Source of the DNA: Streptomyces sp. Q6 | GTDB lineage: Bacteria > Actinomycetota > Actinomycetes > Streptomycetales > Streptomycetaceae | Length of the DNA stretch: 64,000 nucleotides | Assembly (NCBI RefSeq): GCF_036967205.1 | Contig: NZ_CP146022.1 | Coordinates: 496,001 to 560,000 of the forward strand | Reading direction: 5' to 3' | Part shown: one piece after another, positions 5,210 through 20,428 of the stretch | Layout of the letters: each line of letters begins with the position of its first letter | How positions within the stretch are numbered: position 1 is the stretch's first letter | Notes under the pieces: generated by a model | Database searches by the model: none | Seen by the model: only the letters and a program-made list of their open reading frames with translations | Told to the model about the DNA's origin: nothing | Program-made: the position numbers and the translations under genes

Positions 5210-7045
5210 ATGACGCACCACGAGCCGACCTCGGCAGTTCGCATCGACCCCGCAGTGGCGGCCCACCTGGCGCGCATCTCGGACGGCAACGTCGTACGGG
5301 TCAGCGCCGAGGGCCCCGTCTTCGGACGGCCGTGCCGGGTGCGTGCGGTGCGGGAGTCGACCTTCGTACCGGCGCTCGGCCGCGGGGACCGGGCGGCGCT
5401 GCTCGCGATCGCGGTGGGCTGGGCGGTGAGTCTGGTCTGGTTCTGGGCCTGGTGGCTGCGGCCCGAGCACCGGGCGGGCTGGCCGGGCCTGATCGTGAAC
5501 AGCGCGCTGCTGCTGTACCTGACCGGTCTTCCGGCGTACTTCTTCGCCACGGCTCTGCGGCTGCGCAAGGTCGACCCGGCGCTCGCGATCCCGTCGCTGC
5601 CGGTCGCGTTCGTCGTCACGCGCGCCCCGTCGGAGCCGTGGCCTTCCGCCGTGCGCACCCTGGAGGCGATGCTCGCGCAGGACTTCCCGCACCGCTACGA
5701 CGTGTGGCTGTGCGACGAGGCTCCGACGCGCGACATCGTCTCCTGGTGCCACGTGCACCACGTGCGGCTCTCGTCGCGGCACGGCGTGGGCGCCTATCAC
5801 CGGCAGGACTGGCCGCGCCGCACCCGCTGCAAGGAAGGCAACCTCGCCTACTTCTACGACCACTGGGGCTACGACGAGTACGCGGTGGTCGCCCAGCTCG
5901 ACTGCGATCACGTGCCCGCTCCCGGCTATCTCGCCGAGATGGTGCGACCGTTCGCGGACCCGGCGATCGGTTATGTCGCGGCGCCCAGCGTGTGCGACGC
6001 GAACGGCGCCGGTTCCTGGTCGGCGCGGGGCCGGCTGCACCGGGAGGCGGTGTGGCACGGCGCCGTGCAGCTGGGCCACAGCGACGGACTCGCGCCCATG
6101 TGCATCGGCTCGCACTACGCCGTGCGCACCCGGGCGCTGCGCGACATCGGCGGGCTCGGACCGGAGCTCGCGGAGGACTTCTCGACGACGTACCTGCTCA
6201 ACTCGGCGGGCTGGCAAGGGGCGTTCGCGATCGACGCGGAGGCGCACGGCGACGGACCGCTGACGTTCGCGGACATGGTGACGCAGGAGTACCAGTGGTC
6301 GCGCAGCCTCACGACGATGCTGCTCGGCCTGCTCCCCCGGCATCTGGGCCGGCTCCCGATGGCGCTGCGGCTGCGGTTCGCGTACGCGCTGGTGTACTAC
6401 CCGCTGCTCGGCATGATGATCGTGGCCGGTCTGGTGCTGCCGCCGGTCGCCGTCGTGACCGGGCTGCCGTGGATGAACGTCGACTACTTCTCGTTCCTGC
6501 TGCACTTCTGGGTGCTGCCGGTCTGGCTGGTGCTCACGCTGTGGCTGCTGCGGCGGCGCGGGCTGCTCAGGCCGCGCCGGGCACCGCTGCTGAGCTGGGA
6601 GGTGTGGCTGTTCGCGCTGGCCCGCTGGCCGTTCGTGATCGCCGGGCTGCTCGGCGCGGTGCGCCAGCGGATACGGCCCCGGCAGGTCACGTTCAAGGTG
6701 ACGCCGAAGACCGCCGCCGGGCCGCGCCCGCTGCCCGCCCGTCTCACCGTGCCGTTCGCGCTGCTCGGGACCGTGCTCGCCGCCATCGCCGTGTTCGGCG
6801 AACTGACCAGCCCGTCGGCCGGCTATGTGTTCCTGTGCCTGGTCGCGGGGGTGACGTACACCCTGGTCGCGCTCGCGCTGCCGCTGCTGCACGTACGGGA
6901 GACGGCGCGCGCCTGCGGCGTCCCCGTCTCCTCGGCCCTCGCCACCGTGCGGGTCTCCCTGATAGCCACCGTCCCCGCGACGCTGACCGTCGTCACCGCC
7001 GTCGTCTTCTTCCCGGCCTACGCGGCCGCCGTCCTGGGCTGGTGA
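5210..7045 (+). CDS. Cellulose-synthase-like membrane glycosyltransferase (GT2)
   Basis: A 611-aa processive GT2-type enzyme. Two N-terminal membrane helices (about residues 60-115) precede a cytoplasmic catalytic domain. The catalytic domain carries DVWLCDEAPTRD (UDP-binding Asp), QLDCDHVPAP (the DxD metal site), LAEDFSTTY (the catalytic ED, normally TED) and QEYQWSRS (a variant of QxxRW). Four to six C-terminal helices follow. Such enzymes polymerise UDP-sugars into beta-glycans and extrude them. I find no C-terminal PilZ domain, so any c-di-GMP control would have to be indirect. It is the first gene of an operon that also makes UDP-galactose, UDP-glucuronate and UDP-xylose, which are plausible donors. 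The polymer itself is not predictable. Confidence 0.85.
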   Translation: MTHHEPTSAVRIDPAVAAHLARISDGNVVRVSAEGPVFGRPCRVRAVRESTFVPALGRGDRAALLAIAVGWAVSLVWFWAWWLRPEHRAGWPGLIVNSALLLYLTGLPAYFFATALRLRKVDPALAIPSLPVAFVVTRAPSEPWPSAVRTLEAMLAQDFPHRYDVWLCDEAPTRDIVSWCHVHHVRLSSRHGVGAYHRQDWPRRTRCKEGNLAYFYDHWGYDEYAVVAQLDCDHVPAPGYLAEMVRPFADPAIGYVAAPSVCDANGAGSWSARGRLHREAVWHGAVQLGHSDGLAPMCIGSHYAVRTRALRDIGGLGPELAEDFSTTYLLNSAGWQGAFAIDAEAHGDGPLTFADMVTQEYQWSRSLTTMLLGLLPRHLGRLPMALRLRFAYALVYYPLLGMMIVAGLVLPPVAVVTGLPWMNVDYFSFLLHFWVLPVWLVLTLWLLRRRGLLRPRRAPLLSWEVWLFALARWPFVIAGLLGAVRQRIRPRQVTFKVTPKTAAGPRPLPARLTVPFALLGTVLAAIAVFGELTSPSAGYVFLCLVAGVTYTLVALALPLLHVRETARACGVPVSSALATVRVSLIATVPATLTVVTAVVFFPAYAAAVLGW

Positions 7046-7050
7046 GGACC

Positions 7051-8139
7051 ATGTGCGCAGCGGAGTCCCCCTCGACCGTCCTCGTCACGGGCGGCGCCGG
7101 TTTCATCGGCAGCCACGCCTGCGTCGAACTGCTCGACCACGGCTACCAGGTGATCGTGGTCGACGACTACTCCAACAGCTGCCCGCGGGTGCTGCCCCGG
7201 GTGGAGCGGATCGCCGGACGGTTCTTCGGCGCCGTGTACGAGCTGGACATCCGCGATCGGCGCGCCCTCTCGGCCGTCTTCGACCGTCACCCAGTGGACG
7301 CCGTCGTGCACTTCGCCGCGCACAAGGCCGTGGGCGAGTCGACCCGGATGCCCGTCACGTACTACGACACGAACGTCGGCGGCACCACCGCGCTGCTGCA
7401 CACCATGCACGAACACGGTGTGCGCGACCTGGTGTTCTCCTCCTCCTGCTCGGTGTACGGCGACGCGGGCGAGGGCCCCCTCGACGAGTCGACGCCGCAC
7501 CGGCCGACCAACCCGTACGCCGCCTCCAAGTCCCTGTGCGAGCGCGTCCTGGCCGACGTGTGCGCGCACGACCCCCGCTGGCGCGTGCTGTGCCTGCGCT
7601 ACTTCAACCCGGCGGGCGCGCACCCCAGCGGCCTGCTCGGCGAGGACCCGCACGGCACACCCGACAACCTCTTCCCGTACGTCGCCCAGGTCGCCGTCGG
7701 ACGCAGGCGCCGCCTGCGCGTGCTCGGCGGGGACTGGCCGACGCCCGACGGGACCGCGATCCGCGACTACCTCCATGTGATGGACACCGTGGAGGCACAC
7801 CGGATCGCCCTCGATCACCTCGCCGACTCGCGCGGGCTGAGCGTGTTCAACCTCGGCCGCGGACAGGGGAGTTCGGTGCTCGACGTCGTCGCCGCCTTCG
7901 AGGAGGCGAGCGGCGTCAGCGTTCCGTACGAGATCACCGGCCGTCGCGAGGGCGACGTGGCCGCACTCGTGGCGGACGCGGGCGCGGTGGCGCGCGCCTG
8001 GGGCTGGCGTCCCTCCCGGGACCTGCCCGCCATGTGCCGGGACGCCTGGCGTTTCCAGCAGCTCAACCCCGACGGCTACCGGGGCTCGCCCCGCCGGCCG
8101 GGGACGAAGGACGGTCAAGGAGCGGTGCCATGCGGATGA
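7051..8139 (+). CDS. galE: UDP-glucose 4-epimerase
   Basis: A 362-aa short-chain dehydrogenase/reductase of the extended type. It has an N-terminal Rossmann loop GGAGFIGSH, then HFAAHKAVGES, the SSSCSVYGD serine strand, and catalytic Tyr156-x3-Lys160 in NPYAASKSLCE. LRYFNPAGAHPSG and AIRDYLHVMD are GalE-specific signatures. It interconverts UDP-glucose and UDP-galactose using bound NAD. The start codon follows the GT2 stop by only 3 bp with a GAGGACC site. The 3' end overlaps the next gene by 10 bp, indicating translational coupling within the polysaccharide operon. It could also act on UDP-GlcA or UDP-Xyl. Confidence 0.9.
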   Translation: MCAAESPSTVLVTGGAGFIGSHACVELLDHGYQVIVVDDYSNSCPRVLPRVERIAGRFFGAVYELDIRDRRALSAVFDRHPVDAVVHFAAHKAVGESTRMPVTYYDTNVGGTTALLHTMHEHGVRDLVFSSSCSVYGDAGEGPLDESTPHRPTNPYAASKSLCERVLADVCAHDPRWRVLCLRYFNPAGAHPSGLLGEDPHGTPDNLFPYVAQVAVGRRRRLRVLGGDWPTPDGTAIRDYLHVMDTVEAHRIALDHLADSRGLSVFNLGRGQGSSVLDVVAAFEEASGVSVPYEITGRREGDVAALVADAGAVARAWGWRPSRDLPAMCRDAWRFQQLNPDGYRGSPRRPGTKDGQGAVPCG

Positions 8140-9458
8140 CAGTCATCGGCACGGGATACGTCGGCACGGTGCACGCGGCGTGCATGGCCGACATCGGACA
8201 CGAGGTGCTCGGCGTCGACATCGACGCCGATCGGATCGCGTCCCTGGCGGCGGGCCGGGCCCCGCTGCACGAGAAGGGCCTCGACGCGCTCCTCGCGCGC
8301 GGGGTCGAGGCGGGACGGCTGCGGTTCTCGACGTCCCTGGCCGAGGCCGCCGCGTTCGCGAACCTGCACTTCGTCTGCGTGGGCACGCCGCAGCGGCCCG
8401 ATTCGGCCGCCGCCGACCTGCGGTACGTGGACGCGGTCGTCGAGGAGCTCGGGCCGCACCTGCGACCGGGTTCCCTCGTGGTCGGCAAGTCGACGGTGCC
8501 GGTGGGCACGGCCGCCCGGATCGGGCGGCGACTCGCCGACCTCGCGCCGGGCGCCGAGGTCGCGTGGAACCCGGAGTTCCTGCGCGAGGGCCGCGCGGTG
8601 GACGACACGATGCATCCGGAGCGCCTGGTCGTCGGCGTCGGGTCGGAGCGGGCGGAGGCGCTGCTGCGGGCCGTGTACCGGCCGATGAGGGAGGCGGGCG
8701 TGCCCGTGTACACCACGGACACGGCGACGGCGGAGCTGGTGAAGGTCGCCTCGAACGCCTTCCTCGCCACGAAGATCTCCTTCGTGAACGCGATGGCCGA
8801 GGTGTGCGACGCGGCCGGCGCCGACGTCACGGTCCTCGCCCGCGCGATGGGCGCCGACTCCCGCATCGGAGCGCAGTTCCTCGACCCGGGCCTCGGGTTC
8901 GGCGGCAGCTGCTTCCCCAAGGACATCCGGGCGTTCGCCGCCCGCGCCGAGGAGCTGGGCGCGGGAGAGGCCGTCGCGTTCCTGCACGAGGTCGACCGGA
9001 TCAACACGCGGCAGCGGCGGCGCACCGTCGACCGTGCCCGCGCCCTGCTCGGCGGCGCGTTCGAGGGACGCAGGATCGGCGTCCTCGGCGCCGCGTTCAA
9101 GCCGGGCAGCGACGACGTACGCGACTCGCCCGCCCTCGCCGTCGCGGCCGCCGTGCAGGCGGAGGGCGGTGCGGTGCGGGTGCACGATCCGCAGGCCCTC
9201 GACAACGCCCGTGCCGTCTGCCCCGACCTCACGTACGCCCTGGACATTCCGAAGGCGTGCGAGGGCGCGGACCTGGTGCTGCATCTGACGCAGTGGCCTG
9301 AGTACCGCGCGATCGACCCCGCCGCCCTGGCCGGTGTCGTCCGCACCCCGCTGATCCTCGACGCCCGCAACTGTCTCGACGGGCGGGCGTGGGGTGCGGC
9401 CGGCTGGGCCTTCCGGGCGCTCGGACGCCCGGCCCGCAGCACGGGAGGTGCGTCATGA
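8130..9458 (+). CDS. ugd: UDP-glucose 6-dehydrogenase
   Basis: A 442-aa enzyme converting UDP-glucose to UDP-glucuronate with two NAD+. It has the N-terminal GTGYVGTVHAACMADIGHEV Rossmann motif, FVCVGTPQRPDSAAADLRYV, STVPVGT, and WNPEFLREGRAVDD. Catalytic Cys261 lies in GFGGSCFPKD, and the third domain carries VLGAAFKPGSDDVRDSPAL. All family landmarks are present and the length is normal. It overlaps the upstream galE by 10 bp and the downstream decarboxylase by 4 bp. Its product is the substrate of that decarboxylase, which makes the order of the operon biochemically sensible. Confidence 0.94.
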   Translation: MRMTVIGTGYVGTVHAACMADIGHEVLGVDIDADRIASLAAGRAPLHEKGLDALLARGVEAGRLRFSTSLAEAAAFANLHFVCVGTPQRPDSAAADLRYVDAVVEELGPHLRPGSLVVGKSTVPVGTAARIGRRLADLAPGAEVAWNPEFLREGRAVDDTMHPERLVVGVGSERAEALLRAVYRPMREAGVPVYTTDTATAELVKVASNAFLATKISFVNAMAEVCDAAGADVTVLARAMGADSRIGAQFLDPGLGFGGSCFPKDIRAFAARAEELGAGEAVAFLHEVDRINTRQRRRTVDRARALLGGAFEGRRIGVLGAAFKPGSDDVRDSPALAVAAAVQAEGGAVRVHDPQALDNARAVCPDLTYALDIPKACEGADLVLHLTQWPEYRAIDPAALAGVVRTPLILDARNCLDGRAWGAAGWAFRALGRPARSTGGAS

Positions 9459-10426
9459 GAGTGGTGGTCACGGGAGGCGCGGGGTTCCTCGGCTCCCATC
9501 TGTGCGAGGCCCTGCTGTACCGGGGCGACACCGTCTGGTGTCTCGACGACTTCTGCACGGGCAGCCCGGCCAACGTCACGCACCTGCTGCCGGAGCCGCG
9601 GTTCCGGCTGGTGTCCTGCGACGTGACCGAGCCCTTCGACGTGCCGGGTCCGGTGCACGCGGTGGCGCATCTGGCGAGCCCCGCGTCCCCGCCCGACTAC
9701 CACCGGCTGCCGCTGGAGACCCTCGCGGCCGGCAGCCGGGGCACGGAGTACGCGCTGCGGCTGGCGCTGCGCCACGACGCCCGGTTCCTGCTGGCGTCGA
9801 CGAGCGAGTCGTACGGCGACCCCGAGGTGCACCCCCAGCCGGAGGAGTACTGGGGTCATGTGAACCCGGTCGGACCGCGCAGCGTCTACGACGAGGCCAA
9901 GCGGTACGCGGAGGCGCTGACCATGGCGTACCGCCGCTCGCGCGGCGCGAACACGGGCATCGTGCGGATCTTCAACACGTACGGTCCGCGGATGCGCCCG
10001 CACGACGGCCGGGTGGTCTCCACGTTCCTGCGCCAGGCGCTCACCGACCGCCCGCTCACGATCTTCGGCGACGGCTCGCAGACGCGGAGCTTCTGTTACG
10101 TGGACGATCTCGTCCGGGGGCTGACGGCGATGCTCGACGCGTGCGCCGAGGGTCCGGTGAACCTGGGCAATCCCGGGGAGTTCACGGTCCGGGAGCTGGC
10201 GGATCTGGTGCTGGCGGTGACCGGTTCGTCGTCGGCCGTGGAGTTCCGGCCGCTGCCGGTGGACGATCCGACGCGGCGGCGCCCCGTCATCGACCGGGCG
10301 CGCGCCGAGCTGGGCTGGGCCCCGTCGGTGTCCCTGGAGGAGGGCCTGCGCCGCATGGTCGCCTGGTCGCGGGCGCGGTCCCAGGGCCGGCAGGTGCCGC
10401 CGGTCCGTGAGCCCGTGAAGGTGTGA
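9455..10426 (+). CDS. UDP-glucuronate decarboxylase (UDP-xylose synthase)
   Basis: A 323-aa SDR protein of the UXS family. It has GGAGFLGSHLCEALL, then HLASPASPPDYHRLPLETL, which is highly characteristic of UXS and binds the glucuronate. It also has STSESYGDP, catalytic Tyr145-x3-Lys149 (SVYDEAKRYAE), and RIFNTYGPRM. It converts UDP-glucuronate to UDP-xylose and CO2. The ATG sits in an ATGA overlap with ugd. Related plant-type UDP-apiose/xylose synthases share these motifs, so a small amount of UDP-apiose or a 4-keto product is possible, but UDP-xylose is the simplest reading. Confidence 0.88.
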   Translation: MRVVVTGGAGFLGSHLCEALLYRGDTVWCLDDFCTGSPANVTHLLPEPRFRLVSCDVTEPFDVPGPVHAVAHLASPASPPDYHRLPLETLAAGSRGTEYALRLALRHDARFLLASTSESYGDPEVHPQPEEYWGHVNPVGPRSVYDEAKRYAEALTMAYRRSRGANTGIVRIFNTYGPRMRPHDGRVVSTFLRQALTDRPLTIFGDGSQTRSFCYVDDLVRGLTAMLDACAEGPVNLGNPGEFTVRELADLVLAVTGSSSAVEFRPLPVDDPTRRRPVIDRARAELGWAPSVSLEEGLRRMVAWSRARSQGRQVPPVREPVKV

Positions 10427-10431
10427 GGACG

Positions 10432-12069
10432 ATGCGCGGTGCGGCGGTCGCCACGGCGGTGGGGATGGTGGGCCTGGCCGTCATGACGACCGGATGCTCC
10501 GGCACACCGCACTATGTCCCGCCCGCGCACACGTACTACGTCGCGGCCGACGGGGACGACACGGCGGACGGCACGGCGCCGGACTCGGCGTGGCGGACGC
10601 TGGACCGCGCGGACCGCACGAAGCTGCGGCCCGGTGACCGGCTGCTCCTGGAGGGCGGGGCCCGCTTCCGCGGCACGGTGACGGTCGGGCGGGACGAGGC
10701 GGGGGATCCCGGACGGCCGGTCGTCATCGGCTCGTTCGGGTCGGGCCGGGCCGTCGTCACCTCCGCCGCCGAGCCCGCCGTCTCGGTGCACGACACGGGC
10801 GGCGTGCAGATCCGCGACCTCGTGCTGCGCGGAGCGCCCGCGTCCCGCGCGCACGACGCGGGAGTGAACCTCTACAGCGATCTTCAGAGCGGGGCGCGCC
10901 CGTCCGGGATCACCGTGTCCGGCGTGGACGTCTCCGGATTCCGCGTGGGCCTCGCCGTGGGAGCGTCCCGACACGGCGTCGGATTCCGTGATGTGACGGT
11001 GAGCCAGGCGTCGCTGCACGGGAACAAGGACATCGGCCTGCTGACGTACGGACCGGACTTCAAGCCCGCGCGGGCCGCGTACGCGCACGAGAACCTCACC
11101 CTCGACTCCGTGGCGGCGTACGGCAATCCGGGCGATCCGAACGCCCACGACCGGCACACCGGGGACGGCATCGTCGTCGGCTCGGTGCGCGGGGCGACGG
11201 TGCGGCACGTCGACGCGCACGACAACGGCGCCCGCGCGGCGAGCGACGCCCCCGAGGGCCCGGTCGGCGTGTGGGCGTACGACGCGACGCGCGTCGTGAT
11301 CGAGGAGAGCGTCTCCTACCGCAACCACACCGGTTCGACCGTCGACGGCGCGGGCTTCGGGCTCGACTCGAACGTGTCGGACTCGGCGCTGCGTCGCAAC
11401 CTGGCGTTCGACAACGACGGTCCGGGCTTCTACGCGTACCAGCGCTGGACGAACGGCGCGCACGCCCGCAACACGATCAGCCACAACATCAGCGCCGGCG
11501 ACGGGCGGGCGCTGCCCGAGCACGGGGCGGTCGCCGTCTACGGCACGGACATCCACGACCTCGCGGTCGTGCAGAACACGGTGCTGCTGTCCCGCTCCCC
11601 CGCCGGGACGGGGCCCGCGCTGCGGCTCCAGACCGGGGAGCACGGCGTCGTCGTCCGCAACAACCTCTTCGTCACCGAGGGCGTGCCGCTGGTGCTGGCC
11701 GACCGAGGTCTGACCCGGTCGGACGTCGTCCTCCAGGGCAACGACTACCGCTCCGCCGACGGCGACTGGCAGGTGTCGTGGGGCACGGAGTCCTACGGTT
11801 CGCTCGCCGCGTGGCGGGAGGCCACCGGTCAGGAGACGGCCGGTGGCAAGGCGACGGGCCTCGACGTCGATCCGTGTCTGGCCGGGGGCGCCCTGCCCGA
11901 GATCCGGTCCGTGGCCGACGCGTCGCGCACCGTGCCCACATGCCCCGCCCTGGCCGGCAAGGGCGTCGAGCCGCCGCTCCCCGGCGGTGTTCCCGCGGTC
12001 GGCCCCGTCGACTACTTCGGGCACACCGTGGCCGCTCCGCCGCAGGTCGGGGCCGTGGTCCCGCGCTGA
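10432..12069 (+). CDS. Right-handed beta-helix lipoprotein, exported
   Basis: A 545-aa protein with a lipoprotein signal. A short basic start and the hydrophobic stretch VGMVGLAVMTTGC precede a Cys that would be lipidated, so it should sit on the outer face of the membrane. The mature part begins HTYYVAADGDDTADGTAPDSAWRTL, typical of PL-6/PL-9-like or DUF1565 beta-helix proteins, and continues with many irregular short repeats (GVQIRDLVLRG, VTVSQASLHGN, LRRNLAFDNDGPGF, VVQNTVLL, VVRNNLFV). Such folds occur in polysaccharide lyases, epimerases and esterases acting on uronic-acid polymers, which fits a ugd-containing operon. Catalytic residues cannot be assigned. An in-frame GTG lies 9 bp upstream of the chosen ATG. 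Confidence 0.75.
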   Translation: MRGAAVATAVGMVGLAVMTTGCSGTPHYVPPAHTYYVAADGDDTADGTAPDSAWRTLDRADRTKLRPGDRLLLEGGARFRGTVTVGRDEAGDPGRPVVIGSFGSGRAVVTSAAEPAVSVHDTGGVQIRDLVLRGAPASRAHDAGVNLYSDLQSGARPSGITVSGVDVSGFRVGLAVGASRHGVGFRDVTVSQASLHGNKDIGLLTYGPDFKPARAAYAHENLTLDSVAAYGNPGDPNAHDRHTGDGIVVGSVRGATVRHVDAHDNGARAASDAPEGPVGVWAYDATRVVIEESVSYRNHTGSTVDGAGFGLDSNVSDSALRRNLAFDNDGPGFYAYQRWTNGAHARNTISHNISAGDGRALPEHGAVAVYGTDIHDLAVVQNTVLLSRSPAGTGPALRLQTGEHGVVVRNNLFVTEGVPLVLADRGLTRSDVVLQGNDYRSADGDWQVSWGTESYGSLAAWREATGQETAGGKATGLDVDPCLAGGALPEIRSVADASRTVPTCPALAGKGVEPPLPGGVPAVGPVDYFGHTVAAPPQVGAVVPR

Positions 12070-12173: not shown

Positions 12174-15100
12174 TTGCTGCGAGCACATCGGCTGATGGGC
12201 CTGTACGCCGCCCTCGTGGCGGCCGCCACCGCCGTCTACCTGACCGTCCCCGTGACGCAGTCGCCCCTGTGGTGGGCGATCGGCATGGGGTCGGTCGTCG
12301 CGCTCCTCGCGGGGGTGCGGCTGTACCGGCCCGCGCACCGCTGGCCCTGGTACGTCCTGGCGGCCGCCCTCTTCGCGTTCTCCGTCGGGGACACGTACTA
12401 CAACGTGCAGGAGCAGTACTTCGCCGCGTCGAACCCGTTCCCCTCGCCGTCCGACGCGTTCTACCTGCTGACGTATCCACTGTTCGCGATCGGCCTGTTC
12501 GGGCTCGTGCGCCACCGGTGGGCGGGGCGTGACCTGCCCGCGCTGCTCGACGCGCTGATCCTGACGGCGGGGCTCGCACTGCCCGTGTGGGTGTTCCTCG
12601 TCCAGCCGCTCACCCTCGCCGACGGCATGACCTGGGAGCAGCGCGCCATCAGCGTCGCGTACCCGCTCGGTGACGTCCTGGTGCTCGCCCTGCTGGCCCG
12701 GCTGCTCGTCTCGGGCCCGGGGCCGCGCGGCAACCGGTCGGTGCAGCTCCTCGTGGCCGGCACCCTGACGCTGCTCTGCTTCGACATCGCCTACGGGATC
12801 CTCCAGCTCAACGGCGCGTGGCAGGCCGGGACGCTGCTCGACGCGGGCTGGATCGTTTTCTACACGGCGTGGGGGCTCGCGGGAGTGCATCCGTCGATGG
12901 CCGAACTGACCGCGCGCGCTCCGCAGCCGACGCTCCTCCCGGCACGCAGGAGGGTCGTGCTGCTCGGCTTCGCGACGCTCATCGCGCCCGCCATCCTGCT
13001 GTACGAGGCCCTGTCCGGCACCACGCACGACGGCGCGGCGATCGCCGCGTTCAGCGCCGCGCTGTTCCTGCTCGTTTTGCTGCGCCTGGGCGGCATGGTC
13101 GTCGCGCACCGCAAGGCCGTGGCGCGCGAGATGGCGCTGCGCACCGCCACGGCGTCGCTGGTGTCGGCGATGGACGCGCGGGAGATCGCGGCGGCGTGCG
13201 ACACGGCCGTCGCCACGCTGTTCGGCCCGGACACGCCGCACGCCTCGACGCTGCTGCCCGCCGAGCCCCACGCCGACACCCCGCAGGGTCTGCACGAGGC
13301 GACGCGGATGATGCCGGTCGAGGAGCTCGGCCCGTCGGCCGCGTCCCGGCTGCGCGGCCTGCCCACCGCGCTGGTCTGCCCGATGGTCCCGCAGGACAGA
13401 CCGCCGGGCAGCGACCTGCCGGGCGTCCTGGTGGCGGCCGGTCCGCCCAAGGAGCTGGGCGAGATCCGGGGGCCGCTGGAGTCCCTCGCCGCGCACGCGG
13501 GGCTCGCGATGGAGCGGATCGCCCTGCGCCAGGAGATCATCAAGCGGGAGAGCGAGGCGTACTTCCGCACCCTGGTGCGCAACGCGTCGGACGTGATCCT
13601 GATCGTCGACGAGGACAACACCGTGCGGTACGCGAGCCCGTCCGCGCGGGCCGTCTTCGGCGGCGTACGGCCGGTCGGCGTCGTGCTGCCCGACCTGGTG
13701 GGGTCGCGCGACCGGGACCGGGCCACGCGGGCGCTCGCGGCGCTGCGCGTGGACGGGGCGCCCGAGACGCACGACCACTGGTGGGTGACGCAGAACGGCG
13801 GGCGCACCGAGGTCGAGGTGCGGTGCAGCGACCTGCGGGACGACCCGACCGTCGGCGGGATCGTGGTGACGCTGCGCGACGTCACCGAACAGCGACAGCT
13901 GGAACAGGAGCTGACGCAGCGGGCGTTCCACGACGCGCTGACCGGGCTGCCGAACCGGACCCTGCTCCTGGAGCGGGTGGAGCGGGCGCTGCTGCGCAGT
14001 CGCCGCGAGCCCGCCCTGACGTGCCTGCTCTTCATCGACCTCGACGACTTCAAACTGGTCAACGACACGCTGGGGCATCCGGCGGGCGACATGCTCCTGA
14101 TGGCGGTCGGCGAGCGTCTGACGGCGACGCTGCGGCGGTCCGACACGGCGGCGCGGCTCGGCGGCGACGAGTTCGCCGTGCTGATGGAGGACGCCCGCGA
14201 CCCGGTCGACGCGGAGCTGCTGGCGGCGCAGATCCTCCAGACGCTCAGCCGGCCGATCCGGCTCCTGGAGGACGCGGTCAGCGTGTCGGCGAGCGTCGGG
14301 GTGGCCACGGCCCTGGACAGCGGCAGCACGGACGAGCTGCTCCAGCACGCCGACCTGGCGCTGTACGCGGCGAAGGCGGCGGGCAAGCGGCAGTGGCGCC
14401 GCTTCAAGCCGCCGCTGCACGAACGGGTCGTGCGCCGCCACGAGTTGCAGGCCCGCCTCGACGAGGTGGTGAGCAGCGGCGGGTTCGGCCTGCGCTACCA
14501 GCCGGTCGTCGACCTCGCGACGGACGCGGTGGTGGGGTTCGAGGCGCTGGTGCGCTGGCCGGAGGACCCGCGCGGCACGGTGCCGCCGGAGACGTTCGTG
14601 GCACTCGCCGAGGAGACCGGGCACATCGCGTCGCTCGGTGCGTGGGTGCTGCGCAACGCGGCCGCGGGGGCCGCGCGCCTCCAGGCGGTCAGACCGGAGA
14701 ACCCGCCGTACGTGAGCGTGAACGTGTCGGCGCGCCAGTTCCGCGAGGCGGACTTCGTCGACCAGGTGAAGGCCGCCCTTGACACCCCGGGCCTCGCCCC
14801 CGGATCACTCCAACTGGAGCTCACGGAAACGGTGTTGATGCGCCGTGACAAACAGATCGACACGGTGGTGCAGGCCGTCAAGGACCTCGGTGTGCACATC
14901 GCGGTCGACGACTTCGGTACGGGCTTCTCCAGCCTGCGCTATCTGCGCGAGTTCCCCATCGACGTACTGAAGATCGACAAGTCGTTCATCGACGACATCG
15001 CCTCCGACACCCGGCAGGTCGCCCTGGTCGAGGGCATCGTGCGCATCGCCCGCACGCTGGGTCTCGGAGTGATCGCCGAAGGCATCGAGGACCGCGCGCA

Positions 15101-16472
15101 GCGGGACCTGCTGGCCGGCATGGGCTGTCGGTTCGGGCAGGGGTTCCTGTTCGCCCGGCCGCTCACCCCCGAGCACGCCGCCGCGCTGCTCGACAGCCCG
15201 CCACCGAAGGAGACGAGTGCCATGAGCGATACGGCGTCCCCGCCCCCGGGAGTGCGACGTGATCCGCGCTGGGGCGATCTGGAGCGGCTGCGCCGCACCA
15301 ACCCGATGAGCGACGCGGTCCTCGACGAGGTGCGCGGCCGGCACATCCGCAGCGGCGACCACTGGCTCATCGACTTCGCGTCCTGCAACTACCTGGGCTT
15401 CGACCGGGATCCGGAGATCATGGAGGCGATCGGCCCGGCGGTCGCGCAGTGGGGCACGCACCCGAGCTGGTCCCGGCTGCTCGGCTCGCCGCGCCTCTAC
15501 CCGGACATCGAGGAGCGGCTCGCGCTGCTGCTCGGCGCCCCGGACACGCTGGTGCTGCCGACGGCGACGCTGATCCACGCCTCGGTCATCCCGGTGCTCG
15601 CGGGTCAGGGGCAGGTGTTCGTCGAGGCCACCGCGCACCGCACCGTGTACGACGGGTGCGTGGTCGCGCGCGGGCAGGGCGCGACCCTGCACCGCTTCCA
15701 CGCGGAGCGCCCCGACGAGCTGGAGCACCTGCTGCGGTCGGCGCCGCCCGGCGACTCCCGGCTGGTCTGTCTGGACGGCGTGAACAGCATGAGCGGCAAC
15801 CTGCCCGACCTGCCGCGCCTGGCGCGGCTGTGCCGGTCGTTCGACGCGACGCTCTACATCGACGACACGCACGGCTTCGGCGTGATCGGCGAGCGCGGCG
15901 CCACGGAGCCGTGCCCGTACGGGAGCCGGGGCAACGGCGTCGTGCGGCACCTCGGCGAGACGTACGAGGGGATCGTGCTGGTCGGCGGGTTCTCGAAGGC
16001 GTACTCGTCGCTCCTCGCGTTCCTCGCGCTGCCGACCTGGCTCAAGGACCACCTCAAGACGTCGGCGGCGCCCTACCTGTACTCGGGGCCGTCGCCGACC
16101 GCGTCGCTGGCGACGGTCCTGGCCGGACTGGACGTGAACGACAAGCGCGGCGACACGATCCGCGCCGACCTGTACGCGAAGACCCGGCGCGTCCTCGACC
16201 AGGTGACCGCGCTCGGCCTGGACACGCCCAACCGCGACGAACTCCCCATCATCGAGATCCCGTTGGGGCGCTCCTCCGACCTGGACGCGGTGGCCCGCTT
16301 CCTGTGGGACAGCGGCATCTACGTGACGGTGGCCGCCTATCCGCTGGTCCCGCACGACCGGGTGGGCTTCCGCATCCAGCTCACGGCGCTCAACTCGGAC
16401 GAGGACATCGACCGGCTCAACGCGACGCTGGCCCGCCTCAAGGAGCGGTTCCCGCTGCGCGAGAGGGCGTGA
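12174..16472 (+). CDS. Fusion: membrane PAS-GGDEF-EAL c-di-GMP enzyme joined to an alpha-oxoamine synthase (PLP)
   Basis: One uninterrupted 1432-codon frame. Residues ~5-310 hold about eight or nine membrane helices. A GAF-like linker follows, then a PAS domain at ~459-575 (AYFRTLVRNASDVILIVDE). A complete GGDEF domain follows, with the motif at ~662 and the inhibitory-site RRSD five residues upstream. A complete EAL domain (~745-1000) has GFEALVRW, NVSARQF, DDFGTGFSSL and AEGIE. At residue 1017 a full class-II PLP enzyme begins: NYLGF, DDTHGFG, and GGFSKAY with Lys1275 as Schiff-base lysine. I read the codons across the junction (15120-15260) and found no stop. The TTG at 12174 has an AGGGAGG site; ATG 12195 does not. 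An internal ATG at 15222 has its own AAGGAG, so a separate 416-aa enzyme may also be made. Confidence 0.85.
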   Translation: MLRAHRLMGLYAALVAAATAVYLTVPVTQSPLWWAIGMGSVVALLAGVRLYRPAHRWPWYVLAAALFAFSVGDTYYNVQEQYFAASNPFPSPSDAFYLLTYPLFAIGLFGLVRHRWAGRDLPALLDALILTAGLALPVWVFLVQPLTLADGMTWEQRAISVAYPLGDVLVLALLARLLVSGPGPRGNRSVQLLVAGTLTLLCFDIAYGILQLNGAWQAGTLLDAGWIVFYTAWGLAGVHPSMAELTARAPQPTLLPARRRVVLLGFATLIAPAILLYEALSGTTHDGAAIAAFSAALFLLVLLRLGGMVVAHRKAVAREMALRTATASLVSAMDAREIAAACDTAVATLFGPDTPHASTLLPAEPHADTPQGLHEATRMMPVEELGPSAASRLRGLPTALVCPMVPQDRPPGSDLPGVLVAAGPPKELGEIRGPLESLAAHAGLAMERIALRQEIIKRESEAYFRTLVRNASDVILIVDEDNTVRYASPSARAVFGGVRPVGVVLPDLVGSRDRDRATRALAALRVDGAPETHDHWWVTQNGGRTEVEVRCSDLRDDPTVGGIVVTLRDVTEQRQLEQELTQRAFHDALTGLPNRTLLLERVERALLRSRREPALTCLLFIDLDDFKLVNDTLGHPAGDMLLMAVGERLTATLRRSDTAARLGGDEFAVLMEDARDPVDAELLAAQILQTLSRPIRLLEDAVSVSASVGVATALDSGSTDELLQHADLALYAAKAAGKRQWRRFKPPLHERVVRRHELQARLDEVVSSGGFGLRYQPVVDLATDAVVGFEALVRWPEDPRGTVPPETFVALAEETGHIASLGAWVLRNAAAGAARLQAVRPENPPYVSVNVSARQFREADFVDQVKAALDTPGLAPGSLQLELTETVLMRRDKQIDTVVQAVKDLGVHIAVDDFGTGFSSLRYLREFPIDVLKIDKSFIDDIASDTRQVALVEGIVRIARTLGLGVIAEGIEDRAQRDLLAGMGCRFGQGFLFARPLTPEHAAALLDSPPPKETSAMSDTASPPPGVRRDPRWGDLERLRRTNPMSDAVLDEVRGRHIRSGDHWLIDFASCNYLGFDRDPEIMEAIGPAVAQWGTHPSWSRLLGSPRLYPDIEERLALLLGAPDTLVLPTATLIHASVIPVLAGQGQVFVEATAHRTVYDGCVVARGQGATLHRFHAERPDELEHLLRSAPPGDSRLVCLDGVNSMSGNLPDLPRLARLCRSFDATLYIDDTHGFGVIGERGATEPCPYGSRGNGVVRHLGETYEGIVLVGGFSKAYSSLLAFLALPTWLKDHLKTSAAPYLYSGPSPTASLATVLAGLDVNDKRGDTIRADLYAKTRRVLDQVTALGLDTPNRDELPIIEIPLGRSSDLDAVARFLWDSGIYVTVAAYPLVPHDRVGFRIQLTALNSDEDIDRLNATLARLKERFPLRERA
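15206..15224 (+). promoter_or_regulatory. Internal ribosome site and start codon inside the fusion gene
   Basis: GAAGGAG at 15206-15212 stands nine bases before ATG 15222. That ATG is exactly where the alpha-oxoamine-synthase homology begins (MSDTASPPP). It implies that the PLP enzyme can be translated on its own even though no stop codon separates it from the EAL domain. Confidence 0.6.
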
Positions 16473-16479
16473 ACGGGCC

Positions 16480-17214
16480 GTGGCCGCACCGACGTTCAAC
16501 GACGACGTCGACTGGGACGGCTGGCCGGTCGACGCCTACCTCGCCGAGAACTACCGGCAGCTGCACCCCTCCGACGCGGCCGTCATCGCGCACCACAGCG
16601 CGGTCTACCGGCAGCTCGAAGCGGGCGGTGTCGAGCGGTCGGTGGAGTTCGGCGCGGGACCGAACCTGTATCCGCTGATGCTGGCCGCGGCGGTGTGCCG
16701 CCGGATCGACGCGGTGGAGGCGGGCGCCGCCAACGTCGCCTATCTGAGGCGGCAGTCGCGGCACGGACCGGACGTGAGCTGGACCCCCTTCCACGCCCTC
16801 GTGCGGGACCTCGATCCGCGGACCCCGGCGACGCCCGGCGCGGCACTGGCCGGGGTCCGGGTGGTCCACGGCGACGTACGCGCGATCCCCCCGGGGCGGT
16901 ACGGGCTCGCGTCGATGAACTTCGTCGCCGAGGGCGTCACGGAGGACTTCGCCGAGTTCACCGCGCTGTGCGGGCGGTTCGCGGGGTGCGTGGAGCCGGG
17001 CGGGCGCCTGGTCGCGGCGTTCATGGAGAACATGCCGACGTACCGGATCGGCGAGGCGACCGTGTGGCCGGGCTGCCCCGTCGACGTACCGGCCGTACGG
17101 TCCGTCTTCGCGCCGCTGACAAGGGAGTTGACGGTCACGCGCATCGACGCCGACCCGACCCTGCCGGACTACGGGGACTCGGGCATGGTGCTCCTGTCGG
17201 CGGTCGCGCGCTGA
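16480..17214 (+). CDS. SAM-dependent methyltransferase, NNMT/PNMT-like
   Basis: A 244-aa class-I methyltransferase. SVEFGAGPNLYPLMLAAAVCRRIDAVE is motif I and resembles the DxGAGPxxY form of the NNMT/PNMT/TEMT group. VRVVHGDVRAIPP supplies the post-II acid, and GLASMNFVAEGVTEDFAEF with CVEPGGRLVAAFMENMPTY form motifs IV to VI. These enzymes methylate small amines, thiols or hydroxyls. It starts with GTG 7 bp after the fusion gene stop and so belongs to the same operon. A likely reading is that it methylates the aminoketone product of the alpha-oxoamine synthase, but this is inference from adjacency only. Confidence 0.78.
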   Translation: MAAPTFNDDVDWDGWPVDAYLAENYRQLHPSDAAVIAHHSAVYRQLEAGGVERSVEFGAGPNLYPLMLAAAVCRRIDAVEAGAANVAYLRRQSRHGPDVSWTPFHALVRDLDPRTPATPGAALAGVRVVHGDVRAIPPGRYGLASMNFVAEGVTEDFAEFTALCGRFAGCVEPGGRLVAAFMENMPTYRIGEATVWPGCPVDVPAVRSVFAPLTRELTVTRIDADPTLPDYGDSGMVLLSAVAR

Positions 17215-17320: not shown

Positions 17321-20300
17321 ATGGAGAGTTCCGCTCGTCGCGGATGGCTGAGCTGTGAGGTGACGTGGTCGGTCGAGCCGGACGCGCTCGACCGGGTGCT
17401 GGCCGGCGGCGAGGCGGCCCGCTTCCTGGACCTCGCGGTCACGGGCGCCCAGACCATGCGGGTCCAGGTCACCTCCCGGGCCGCACGGATCGACCTGGAG
17501 TCGGCGACCCTGTTCGGCGAGGGCGTCACCCTCGTCGACGACGGCGAACGCATCCACTGCCTCGGGCACGGTCGCGGCGAGCGACTCGTCCTGGACCGCT
17601 CCTGGGTGCCGCGCGGCCGCTGCGAGGCACCCGTCGTGGTGGTCGACGGGCCGTACGTCGAGGACTGCCCGCTGGAGGACGGCCGCGCGGGCAAGGCCGT
17701 CTCCGTCGTCCTGCGCGAACCGGGCGCGCCGGAGCGCTATCGGCAGCAGGTGTTCGTCGATCCGGAGCGCCCCGCGCACGGGCTGACGGGGCGCGTGCTC
17801 GAACTCGTCCTCGGTGACGCGGGCGTGCACCGCCCCGGTGGCTATCCGATCGGGGAGGTCGCCGCTCTGGTGGCCGAGACCGGTGTACCGGTGGGCTGCG
17901 CGGTCGACGCGCTGGGCGCGACACCCGAGTACGTCCCCCACCGGCTCGGCGGGTTCCGTATCGACCGGTGGGACTCCGGTGAGGACGACGACCTCACCCG
18001 GCAGCCGGAGCGGCGCGCCGGTGCGCCCCGGGCAGACGTACGGGACGCACCCGTCGTCGCGCCGGCGTCGCGCCGGGACCCGGACACCGCTCCGGTGACC
18101 TCGCGGATGCTCCCCCGTGACGAGGAACTGCCGGGCCACGACCCCGAGGAGGTGAGGAAGCCGCCGCCCCCGCGGCAGACGACCGACGCGCCCCTCGGGC
18201 TGCTGATCGAGCAGCGCCTGCTGTCGGACCTGACGTCCGTCGTCAACCGGGCTCTGCGCCCGCTGGCCGGAGCGAGCTTCACCTTCTCCCCACGGTCCGC
18301 GACCGTCCCCTGGCTGGCGACGGCCCGGCAGGGCGTGCTGGCCCGCGAGACCGACAAGGTGAACCACACCTTCCCGCCCGGCCTCGACATCCTCGGCTTC
18401 TGTCTGCTGCACGACCTGGTCCCGCCGTCGCCGCTGGGCGGCTACGCGGGCCCCTCGGTCGACGTCCCCGGCTGGGGCACGATCCGCGGCCGGGGCCTGC
18501 TGGACCGCGAGGCGATGAAGGCGGCGAAGGCGGCGGTCACGACCGGGACGGTGCCCGCCGCGGTGCTCGCCCGGCTGCCCGCCGACGTCACGGCGGCGCT
18601 GACGGCTGCCGGCACCGACTGGACGCTGCTCACTCCCGAGCAGAAGCTCCAACTCGCGCACGCCACGCTCCTGGAGACGTCGGGGACGCTGGTCCTGCCC
18701 ACCCTGCCGAGCACGCTCCCGTTCAACGTGTCCGACATCATCGTCGGCGAACTGTCGTCCTACACCGCCACATGGGGCCTGCCCCGGGCCCCGGACGGCA
18801 GCTGTCCGTTGATCACCTCGATGACGTGCACGGGCCGGGGCATCTACGCCCGTCTCTCGTTGGGCTCCCTCGCCCTGTCCGGCAACGTCACCCGCAGCCT
18901 CGGCACGAGGTACTGGCTGGTCCTCGCCGCGAGCGCGCTGGTGCCGCTCCTCATGCCCGGCCTCGCCTGGGTGCTCGGGGTGCTCAGCTCCGCCGCCGCG
19001 TTCGTCGTCCTGGACGCGGCCAGGGCCCGCCTGCGGATCAGCGGCCTGACCGCGGACATCGCCCTGCGCCTGTCCCCCGACACCGGGGCGCGGATCCAGC
19101 CGACGATCACCGTCAGCTGCTCGGGCCGGGTCTCCGCCGACCTCACGTCGGCCGTACCGAGCGCCCTGCACCGGATCGTGGACCTGGTCCTCGAGGCCCT
19201 CGCCCGGATCGGCGGGCCCGTGCTCCAGATCCTCGGCTCCACGCTGGGCAGGACGCTCACCACGGCGCTGCGCGACCGCGTCGGCGGTTCCGCCGACCCC
19301 GCGACCCTCTTCGGGCTCGACGTGCCGCGGACCGGCGCGAGCGTCACCGGCGGCGGGAGCAGCTTCCTCTACGTCGAATCGCAGCTGGCGGCCCCTTCGG
19401 GGTACCCGGTGGCGCTGACGACGGTCCGCGAGGCCGGTCCCTCGCCGGTCCTGTCCGACGCGTCGCGGCTCGTGGCCGCCGACGGACGGCACTACGCCTC
19501 CGTGCTCAGCTCGGAGAACACCCTCAACGTGCTGCTCGCCGCGGCGCACCGGCGCGGCGAGTTCGGCGCCCGGCTCACCACCGGGCAGCAGGGGACGCTG
19601 CGGATGCTCACCCGGCCGCCCTTCACGCCGGTCTTCTCCGGCGGCGTCACGGTCGCGGCGCTCGCGCCCCCGCGTCTCACCCTGCAACGCGCGCTGCCCA
19701 CCGCGCCGACCCCGCACGGTGTGCTGCGCACGGAGTTCGCGCTGACCGTGCAGGACTCGAAGGAGACCTGGTCGCGGCTGCTGTTCACGGCGACGGCTCC
19801 GGCCCGCGTGGTGGCCGGTTCGGCCCCCGGGTCGACGACCCCGAAGATCGACCTGTTGAGCATGGCCGTCGCCCCGCTCGACGTGCTGGTCGACCAGGCG
19901 GGCACCACGGTGCAGGTCACGCGTGTACAAGCGGTGGACCTGGTACGCCAGACCATCACCGAGGAGGTCGAGGACGTCCGGGGCAAGAAGAAGACGAAGA
20001 CCTGGGTGGAGACCTACGAGCGGGAGATCGACCAGGCCCTCACCGCCTCCGAGGCCCAGGCGCTCGCGCCGCTCGCGGTCACGGCGGCGCGGTACGGCTT
20101 CGGCGGCGTGCGCGGGCTCGGCCGGCTGCCGTACCGGGACGGCGTCCGCGCCGACGGGGCGTTCGTCGACCCGAAGGACCCGGCCGCGGGGATCGATCCG
20201 GTCACCCGGCTCACGTACACCCTGACCGGCACCGATCCGGACGATCTGCCCAACCCCCGGCCCGGGTACGCGCTGGCGGATCTCGGCTTCCGGGACGGTC

Positions 20301-20428
20301 TCGCCTTCCACCACCTCTCGCTCGCCGGTCTCGCGGCGACGGCCGTGGACCCGACCCTGGAGCAGCTCCTCGTGGCGAACTGGGCGGCGCTGTTCTACGG
20401 GGCGCTGGGGGCGCCCGACTTCACCTGA
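17321..20428 (+). CDS. Large protein of unknown function with central hydrophobic region
   Basis: I do not recognise this 1035-aa protein. Residues 1-215 form a mixed alpha/beta part with several short beta-strand segments (MRVQVTSRAARIDLESATLF). A low-complexity Pro/Arg/Asp linker at ~215-285 separates it from the rest. A hydrophobic stretch (RYWLVLAASALVPLLMPGLAWVLGVLSSA in meaning, near residues 530-560) could be one or two membrane helices. It is flanked by long amphipathic segments (ISGLTADIALRLSP; HRIVDLVLEALARIGGPVL) that recall tubular lipid-binding (TULIP/P47-like) folds, a weak guess. A lysine-rich loop GKKKTKTW lies near 890. No signal peptide is visible. I chose ATG 17321 with GAGG eight bases upstream; an in-frame GTG at 17312 is possible. 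The 3' end overlaps the convergent gene by 34 bp. Confidence 0.7.
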   Translation: MESSARRGWLSCEVTWSVEPDALDRVLAGGEAARFLDLAVTGAQTMRVQVTSRAARIDLESATLFGEGVTLVDDGERIHCLGHGRGERLVLDRSWVPRGRCEAPVVVVDGPYVEDCPLEDGRAGKAVSVVLREPGAPERYRQQVFVDPERPAHGLTGRVLELVLGDAGVHRPGGYPIGEVAALVAETGVPVGCAVDALGATPEYVPHRLGGFRIDRWDSGEDDDLTRQPERRAGAPRADVRDAPVVAPASRRDPDTAPVTSRMLPRDEELPGHDPEEVRKPPPPRQTTDAPLGLLIEQRLLSDLTSVVNRALRPLAGASFTFSPRSATVPWLATARQGVLARETDKVNHTFPPGLDILGFCLLHDLVPPSPLGGYAGPSVDVPGWGTIRGRGLLDREAMKAAKAAVTTGTVPAAVLARLPADVTAALTAAGTDWTLLTPEQKLQLAHATLLETSGTLVLPTLPSTLPFNVSDIIVGELSSYTATWGLPRAPDGSCPLITSMTCTGRGIYARLSLGSLALSGNVTRSLGTRYWLVLAASALVPLLMPGLAWVLGVLSSAAAFVVLDAARARLRISGLTADIALRLSPDTGARIQPTITVSCSGRVSADLTSAVPSALHRIVDLVLEALARIGGPVLQILGSTLGRTLTTALRDRVGGSADPATLFGLDVPRTGASVTGGGSSFLYVESQLAAPSGYPVALTTVREAGPSPVLSDASRLVAADGRHYASVLSSENTLNVLLAAAHRRGEFGARLTTGQQGTLRMLTRPPFTPVFSGGVTVAALAPPRLTLQRALPTAPTPHGVLRTEFALTVQDSKETWSRLLFTATAPARVVAGSAPGSTTPKIDLLSMAVAPLDVLVDQAGTTVQVTRVQAVDLVRQTITEEVEDVRGKKKTKTWVETYEREIDQALTASEAQALAPLAVTAARYGFGGVRGLGRLPYRDGVRADGAFVDPKDPAAGIDPVTRLTYTLTGTDPDDLPNPRPGYALADLGFRDGLAFHHLSLAGLAATAVDPTLEQLLVANWAALFYGALGAPDFT

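Follow-up and report, generated by a model that had tools for sequence, protein, structure and literature searches.

Organisation of the locus

A 64,000-nucleotide stretch of DNA from Streptomyces sp. Q6 (contig NZ_CP146022.1, positions 496,001 to 560,000), hereafter the window, contains an open reading frame (ORF) at positions 12174 to 16472 in which a cyclic diguanylate (c-di-GMP) turnover protein is followed in frame by a complete alpha-oxoamine synthase (AOS), an enzyme dependent on pyridoxal 5'-phosphate (PLP). Direct reading of the window DNA gave a stop-free translation of 1432 residues. The start is ambiguous: a TTG at 12174 has GGAGG 9 nucleotides upstream, and an ATG at 12195 has no such site nearby. 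Pfam matches to PAS (residues 463–570), GGDEF (584–739), EAL (761–996) and Aminotran_1_2 (1066–1415) were obtained on the fusion protein, all four exceeding their curated cut-offs. The features of the ORF are as follows.

12174..16472, + strand: fusion ORF, membrane region, PAS, GGDEF, EAL and AOS; 1432 amino acids, or 1425 from the ATG at 12195
12195..13170, + strand: N-terminal membrane domain, modelled with ten long helices
13560..13883, + strand: PAS domain (Pfam)
13923..14390, + strand: GGDEF domain, GGDEF motif and RxxD site intact (Pfam, alignment)
14454..15161, + strand: EAL domain with catalytic residues
15162..15221, + strand: linker between EAL and synthase, of species-dependent length
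15207..15224, + strand: AAGGAG and ATG, possible internal start of a free 416-amino-acid synthase (DNA reading; S. longispororuber locus L141 alike)
15222..16472, + strand: AOS domain (Pfam, NCBIfam and PDB matches), PLP lysine codon at 15996–15998

A sequence-only reading of this DNA had proposed the fusion. The open frame, its four Pfam domains and its occurrence in many species confirm that the in-frame union of a c-di-GMP turnover protein with a complete AOS is real.

The fused junction is widespread in Streptomyces

AOS relatives were taken at E <= 1e-80 from a sample of 392 genomes drawn from the genus, and a close relative was found in 68 of them. The DNA around all 68 places was read, and the junction could be scored at 66. 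Locus L096, where the AOS lies at a contig edge with no EAL to score, and L127, where the AOS is broken, were excluded from these 66 loci and from the tree described below, while L126, whose AOS contains stops, was scored as fused since its junction is open. The junction was open and in frame at 57 of the 66 scorable loci, and two genes were present at the other nine, five with an in-frame stop (L073, L074, L076, L077 and L085) and four out of frame (L065, L081, L086 and L099). The 37 Streptomyces loci from named genomes comprised 32 fused and 5 split. In the nearest named relative, S. longispororuber, the AOS is 92% identical and both the 48-nucleotide gap and the junction are the same.

Adjacent pairs in other genera were organised differently. 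All 12 loci scored in sister family f3 consist of two genes in different frames, with the AOS starting close to the upstream stop (L140, which has no EAL upstream, is not among the 12). None of 43 named non-Streptomyces loci is fused, although 24 of them have an EAL within 600 nucleotides upstream. No fusion was therefore present among the 36 adjacent non-Streptomyces pairs scored (12 from the sister family and 24 named, at least three being counted twice). The sequence-only reading had named two ways in which the fusion could fail, a base error at the junction and homologues always encoded as two genes. A base error or assembly artefact is ruled out because S. longispororuber and many other assemblies share the junction, and the fused state of 57 of 66 loci disposes of the second. 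A chance open frame arising from high GC content is likewise ruled out by the unfused pairs of other genera, as 57/66 fused in Streptomyces against 0/12 in the sister family and 0/24 among named non-Streptomyces loci leaves high GC alone as no explanation.

The history of the fusion was examined on a tree of 78 loci built from the AOS plus GGDEF-EAL. The fused or split label changes at least 6 times on this tree. Three Streptomyces groups, of 7, 19 and 21 rows, are wholly fused, and all nine split Streptomyces loci fall in a 37-row clade that contains the window. A single clade of all fused rows was rejected (57 fused against 21 split rows, approximately unbiased test p = 1.4e-6). One fusion with later fissions and several independent fusions cannot be told apart.

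The synthase is probably made only within the fusion in most species

An internal ribosome site ahead of the synthase had also been put forward in the sequence-only reading. AAGGAG lies at 15207–15212 and ATG at 15222 of the window (read from the DNA at 15180–15260), and the same AAGGAG-ATG arrangement precedes the AOS in S. longispororuber, so that the claim holds for this lineage, which may make both a fused and a free synthase. It does not extend to most fused loci. With a start signal defined as any 4-base ribosome-site match plus an in-frame start, and the expectation obtained by codon shuffling of the linkers, a signal was present at 9/9 split Streptomyces loci, 12/12 sister-family loci and only 11/57 fused loci (19.7 expected). 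With a 5-base match the counts were 4/9, 6/12 and 6/57 (4.4 expected for the fused loci). Because a start signal is found at every split locus and at few fused ones, most species probably produce the synthase solely as a domain of the fusion.

These results bear on the possibility that the open junction has no function, the locus being two co-transcribed genes whose intervening stop codon has been lost, with the synthase still made from an internal start. The AAGGAG-ATG kept in the window and in S. longispororuber is consistent with this, as is the alternation of split and fused loci within the window's clade. The 46 of 57 fused loci without a 4-base site and in-frame start, compared with 21 of 21 split loci that have one, argue against it, and so do the linkers, of whose 34 distinct lengths 31 keep the frame (62 of 66 loci, including the five split in-frame loci with a stop). 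Linker lengths are shared by descent and so are not independent of one another, but their bias towards the frame argues for selection on continuity. We consider a functionless junction quite unlikely.

The synthase domain is homologous to the alpha-oxoamine synthase family

The AOS domain scored 79.3 bits against Aminotran_1_2 (cut-off 19.7). Its best PDB matches were 8s1y and 7poa, BioF/KBL-type chains, down to E 1.5e-37, and the PDB alignment spans residues 19–402 of the domain. In NCBIfam, compared with the BioF, KBL, SPT and ALAS models, the AOS fell under the cut-off of each of the 11 models that it matched, the best being TIGR00858 (BioF) at 184.6 bits against 426.45. The Pfam and PDB matches show homology with the alpha-oxoamine synthase family over the whole domain, with the key positions present. 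Membership of the CqsA/LqsA subfamily was rejected: model NF005526 scored 76.9 bits against a cut-off of 428, and CqsA chains ranked near the bottom (E about 7e-11) of the 49 retained PDB matches. The kinship to CqsA and LqsA suggested in the sequence-only reading was accordingly not borne out.

The active sites are conserved and both halves are under purifying selection

GGDEF, RxxD, the EAL residues and the PLP lysine are all present in the window fusion and conserved in the alignment of fused rows, in agreement with the sequence-only reading. GGDEF and the R and D of RxxD were kept in 57/57 fused rows, and the EAL residues (EAL, N, E, DD, K, E and Q) in the window and 57/57 fused rows, barring one D to A change in DDFG. 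The PLP lysine was kept in 53 of the 56 fused rows aligned at that position. We assume here the usual roles of the GGDEF A-site, the RxxD I-site and the EAL catalytic residues, and likewise of the PLP lysine, histidine, aspartate, histidine and arginine of the AOS. In ten species pairs the ratio of non-synonymous to synonymous substitution rates (dN/dS) was 0.10–0.23 in nine and 0.35 in one for the AOS, and 0.03–0.25 for GGDEF-EAL, showing purifying selection on both halves in the sampled pairs.

The c-di-GMP half appears to correspond to CdgF of S. venezuelae

CdgF (vnz02140) of S. venezuelae is described as a 10TM-PAS-PAC-GGDEF-EAL protein of undefined function in which the key GGDEF and EAL residues are present (PMC6205966, PMC13232838). 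C-terminally FLAG-tagged CdgF was detected in the membrane fraction only, and CdgF was among the least abundant proteins (PMC6205966). The same paper describes a cdgF deletion mutant and the C-terminally tagged strain, and gives colony phenotypes for four other deletions (PMC6205966). In 2026 the function of CdgF was still to be defined (PMC13232838).

Genome G015 has 5 EAL and 8 GGDEF places, equal to the numbers of chromosomal genes in Table 1 of PMC6205966. When matched by class and order, the positions in G015 and the S. venezuelae locus tags correlate with r = 0.9998. A fit made without cdgF predicted this gene at 443 kb, and the corresponding place was found at 487 kb (residual standard deviation 39 kb). 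That place is fusion locus L118, with an open frame of 1647 codons. Architecture and genome position, read through G015 and L118, are strong indications that the c-di-GMP half is CdgF. If the tagged cdgF is the fusion ORF, the FLAG tag sits behind the AOS.

The main text of PMC6205966, apart from its supplements, contains neither 'aminotransferase' nor 'transferase'. PMC13232838 contains no 'aminotransferase', 'PLP' or 'oxononanoate', and the available passages of both papers make no mention of an AOS. Among titles and abstract openings of the open-licence literature, no paper on such a fusion was found. The sequence-only reading had regarded the system as undescribed. This needs qualification for the c-di-GMP half, which appears to be the published CdgF; an AOS half was found in none of these partial sources.

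The membrane domain and structure models

The membrane domain (about the first 325 residues) was modelled with a mean predicted local distance difference test score (pLDDT) of 90.3 from 35 aligned sequences and has ten long helices. Neither Pfam (above cut-off) nor NCBIfam gave a match for it, and in a fold search, in which a seven-helix receptor fold was looked for above the helical-bundle background, no family stood out. The domain is not exclusive to this system, since GGDEF-EAL proteins exist that have it and no AOS in the fetched stretch. In the model of GGDEF-EAL-AOS (17 close sequences, mean pLDDT 68.7, predicted template modelling score 0.40) the GGDEF-EAL part is good and much of the AOS poor, and the packing of the halves cannot be read from it reliably. 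One low-confidence stretch of this model, residues 441–563 of 862, takes in both the linker and the beginning of the synthase.

The synthase is linked to GGDEF and EAL genes beyond Streptomyces

In a phylum sample of 396 genomes the AOS was found at E <= 1e-100 in 25, of which 23 are not Streptomyces. Two loci with an AOS of 41–42% identity (L266 and L267) were left out, giving 21 loci above 50% identity. At 17 of these 21 the fetched stretch contains an EAL or GGDEF domain, mostly within 8 kb, and on the same strand as the AOS at 15 of the 17; none was found in the fetched stretch of L246, L255, L259 (a 3.8-kb contig) or L265. As only 3–11 EAL matches occur per genome (26 genomes, 21 from the phylum sample and 5 from the sister family), this neighbourhood is far above chance. 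The AOS clade is thus linked to GGDEF/EAL genes outside Streptomyces as well. The link is not universal, because a Paractinoplanes/Actinoplanes AOS subgroup (L210, L212, L214, L217 and L218; 58–59% identity) has no GGDEF or EAL in the fetched stretch; this subgroup may have another function. Some non-Streptomyces loci are shared between the named and unnamed sets (for example L198 with L248, and L207 with L253), so the counts are not independent.

A transporter cluster was present at 24 of 66 non-Streptomyces loci, and at 14 of them it starts within 114 nucleotides of the AOS end (some are duplicates, and 64 have the AOS as a called gene). The one member scanned against Pfam, at L247, is MFS_3. 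A histidine-kinase-cluster protein occurs at at least three distinct loci (L248, L251 and L252), and at L248 the member scanned joins a related membrane domain to a PAS histidine kinase. At these three loci the AOS, the histidine-kinase-cluster protein with its CdgF-like membrane domain, an MFS_3-cluster transporter and a GGDEF-EAL-type protein follow one another in one direction.

By analogy with CqsA/CqsS and LqsA/LqsS, the protein could be both synthase and receptor: the AOS would make an aminoketone or hydroxyketone autoinducer, the protein's own membrane domain would sense it, and c-di-GMP would be the output. Outside Streptomyces the AOS adjoins GGDEF-EAL proteins with a related membrane domain and, in some taxa, the histidine-kinase-cluster protein and the transporters described above, and this counts in favour of such a reading. 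The diffusible signal proposed in the sequence-only reading thus gains indirect support from context and loses that of the enzyme family: by score the AOS lies outside the CqsA/LqsA subfamily, for which reason the signal is held as a hypothesis, albeit a serious rival to a lipid given the sensor and transporter context. A protein that is synthase and receptor in one is possible. Somewhat more doubtful is the further proposal that the aminoketone-type signal is sensed by the membrane domain of the same polypeptide and converted directly into c-di-GMP, and that, in Actinobacteria other than Streptomyces, the transporter-bearing two-gene loci constitute an undescribed class of quorum sensing.

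Neighbouring genes

The fusion is flanked in the window by the following genes.

5210..12069, + strand: polysaccharide-type genes upstream of the fusion (GT2, GalE-like, uridine diphosphate (UDP)-glucose dehydrogenase, epimerase, beta-helix protein)
16480..17214, + strand: S-adenosylmethionine-dependent methyltransferase, starting 7 nucleotides past the fusion stop

Downstream, a methyltransferase relative is present at 65 of the 68 Streptomyces loci, the exceptions being L062, L063 and L089. When genes were clustered over 81 loci the methyltransferase was found at 57, whereas the second commonest neighbour was at 30. Its best NCBIfam match is NF040568 (SCO2525-family), at 130.1 bits against a cut-off of 240. 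Behind it, a 1022-amino-acid ORF at 17360–20428 had no Pfam match (E <= 0.01), and tblastn found no relative of it at the other 80 loci.

The PLP lysine and the methyltransferase are both missing from sister loci L062 and L063, and this pair has the highest AOS dN/dS of the ten pairs (0.35). At L066 the lysine is lost and the methyltransferase retained; at L089 the lysine is retained and no methyltransferase matched. The co-loss agrees only weakly with the AOS and the methyltransferase belonging to one pathway, since it rests on one or two events. It could also be asked whether the AOS is non-catalytic and has a sensing or dimerising role within the c-di-GMP enzyme, as the domain is kept in the three of 56 fused rows in which the lysine is replaced, two of them being these sister loci without a nearby methyltransferase. 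With the lysine retained in all the other rows, and an elevated dN/dS in L062/L063 of the kind that decay would give, this is very improbable.

Polysaccharide synthesis is under c-di-GMP regulation in many biofilm operons, and the AOS might accordingly make a lipid or a modifier of an exopolysaccharide that the c-di-GMP half regulates. In the window the fusion does follow the co-directional polysaccharide-type genes, of which GT2, GalE-like, UDP-glucose dehydrogenase and epimerase share one direction over 5210–10426. The beta-helix gene, however, is found at only 10 of the 68 Streptomyces loci and the other contexts differ, so that we judge this reading unlikely, and exopolysaccharide was set aside as the general function because the operon is present at a minority of loci.

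A proposed membrane-tethered synthase coupled to c-di-GMP

We consider it probable that the ORF is Streptomyces CdgF with a C-terminal AOS, and that it works as an aminoketone synthase tethered to the membrane and coupled to c-di-GMP. An input would be received by the membrane region and PAS domain, and the GGDEF and EAL domains, both with intact sites, would set c-di-GMP locally. At the membrane, the AOS would form an alpha-aminoketone by condensing an amino acid with an acyl thioester; the adjacent methyltransferase would probably modify this product, giving a signal or an envelope lipid. The c-di-GMP half could then either report on the AOS chemistry or control it. We infer the enzymatic activity, the product, the tethering and the control between the halves. 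This proposal overlaps the synthase-and-receptor alternative, in which the product is a signal that the protein itself senses.

Several observations weigh against a tethered, coupled synthase. The AOS decays in some lineages, the lysine being changed to R in L062, N in L063 and Q in L066, and the domain carrying stops in L126 and being broken in L127. Of the 392 Streptomyces genomes, 324 gave no AOS at E <= 1e-80. AOS and GGDEF/EAL are associated without being fused too, as the genes are separate at nine of 66 Streptomyces loci and in all non-Streptomyces pairs scored. Finally, the ribosome-site scans are crude, and the 5-base scan misses many starts that split genes must use.

A signalling or lipid pathway may have been overlooked here, as is suggested by the fused gene in Streptomyces and by the related separate pairs of Actinobacteria outside that genus. 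In the developmental model S. venezuelae, a complete biosynthetic enzyme appears to be part of one of the ten chromosomal proteins that turn over c-di-GMP. If CdgF does carry the AOS, it would acquire a chemistry that can be tested and would point to a link between a small-molecule synthase and c-di-GMP extending well beyond Streptomyces.

Comparison with known systems

The window AOS resembles the alpha-oxoamine synthase family (BioF, KBL, SPT and ALAS) in its conserved PLP lysine, histidine, Asp-x-x-His and arginine positions. It differs in having a c-di-GMP partner and a THPSWSR motif that is invariant in the 19 rows of alignment A1 and nearly so in the 57 fused rows. SCO2525-family methyltransferases are the nearest NCBIfam kin of the downstream gene, yet its score under the cut-off means that it is not a member.

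In CqsA/CqsS and LqsA/LqsS, synthase and sensor are separate proteins and the output is phosphorylation. Compared here through the NCBIfam model and the PDB list only, these systems share with the fusion the genetic linkage of a PLP synthase and a membrane sensor; the fusion differs in its c-di-GMP output, its single polypeptide and an AOS that scores far under the model cut-off. Another close counterpart is CdgF, which is likewise a membrane-bound 10TM-PAS-PAC-GGDEF-EAL protein and whose gene order and genome position match the G015 fusion. The described architecture of CdgF stops at EAL, and to this the fusion adds the AOS.
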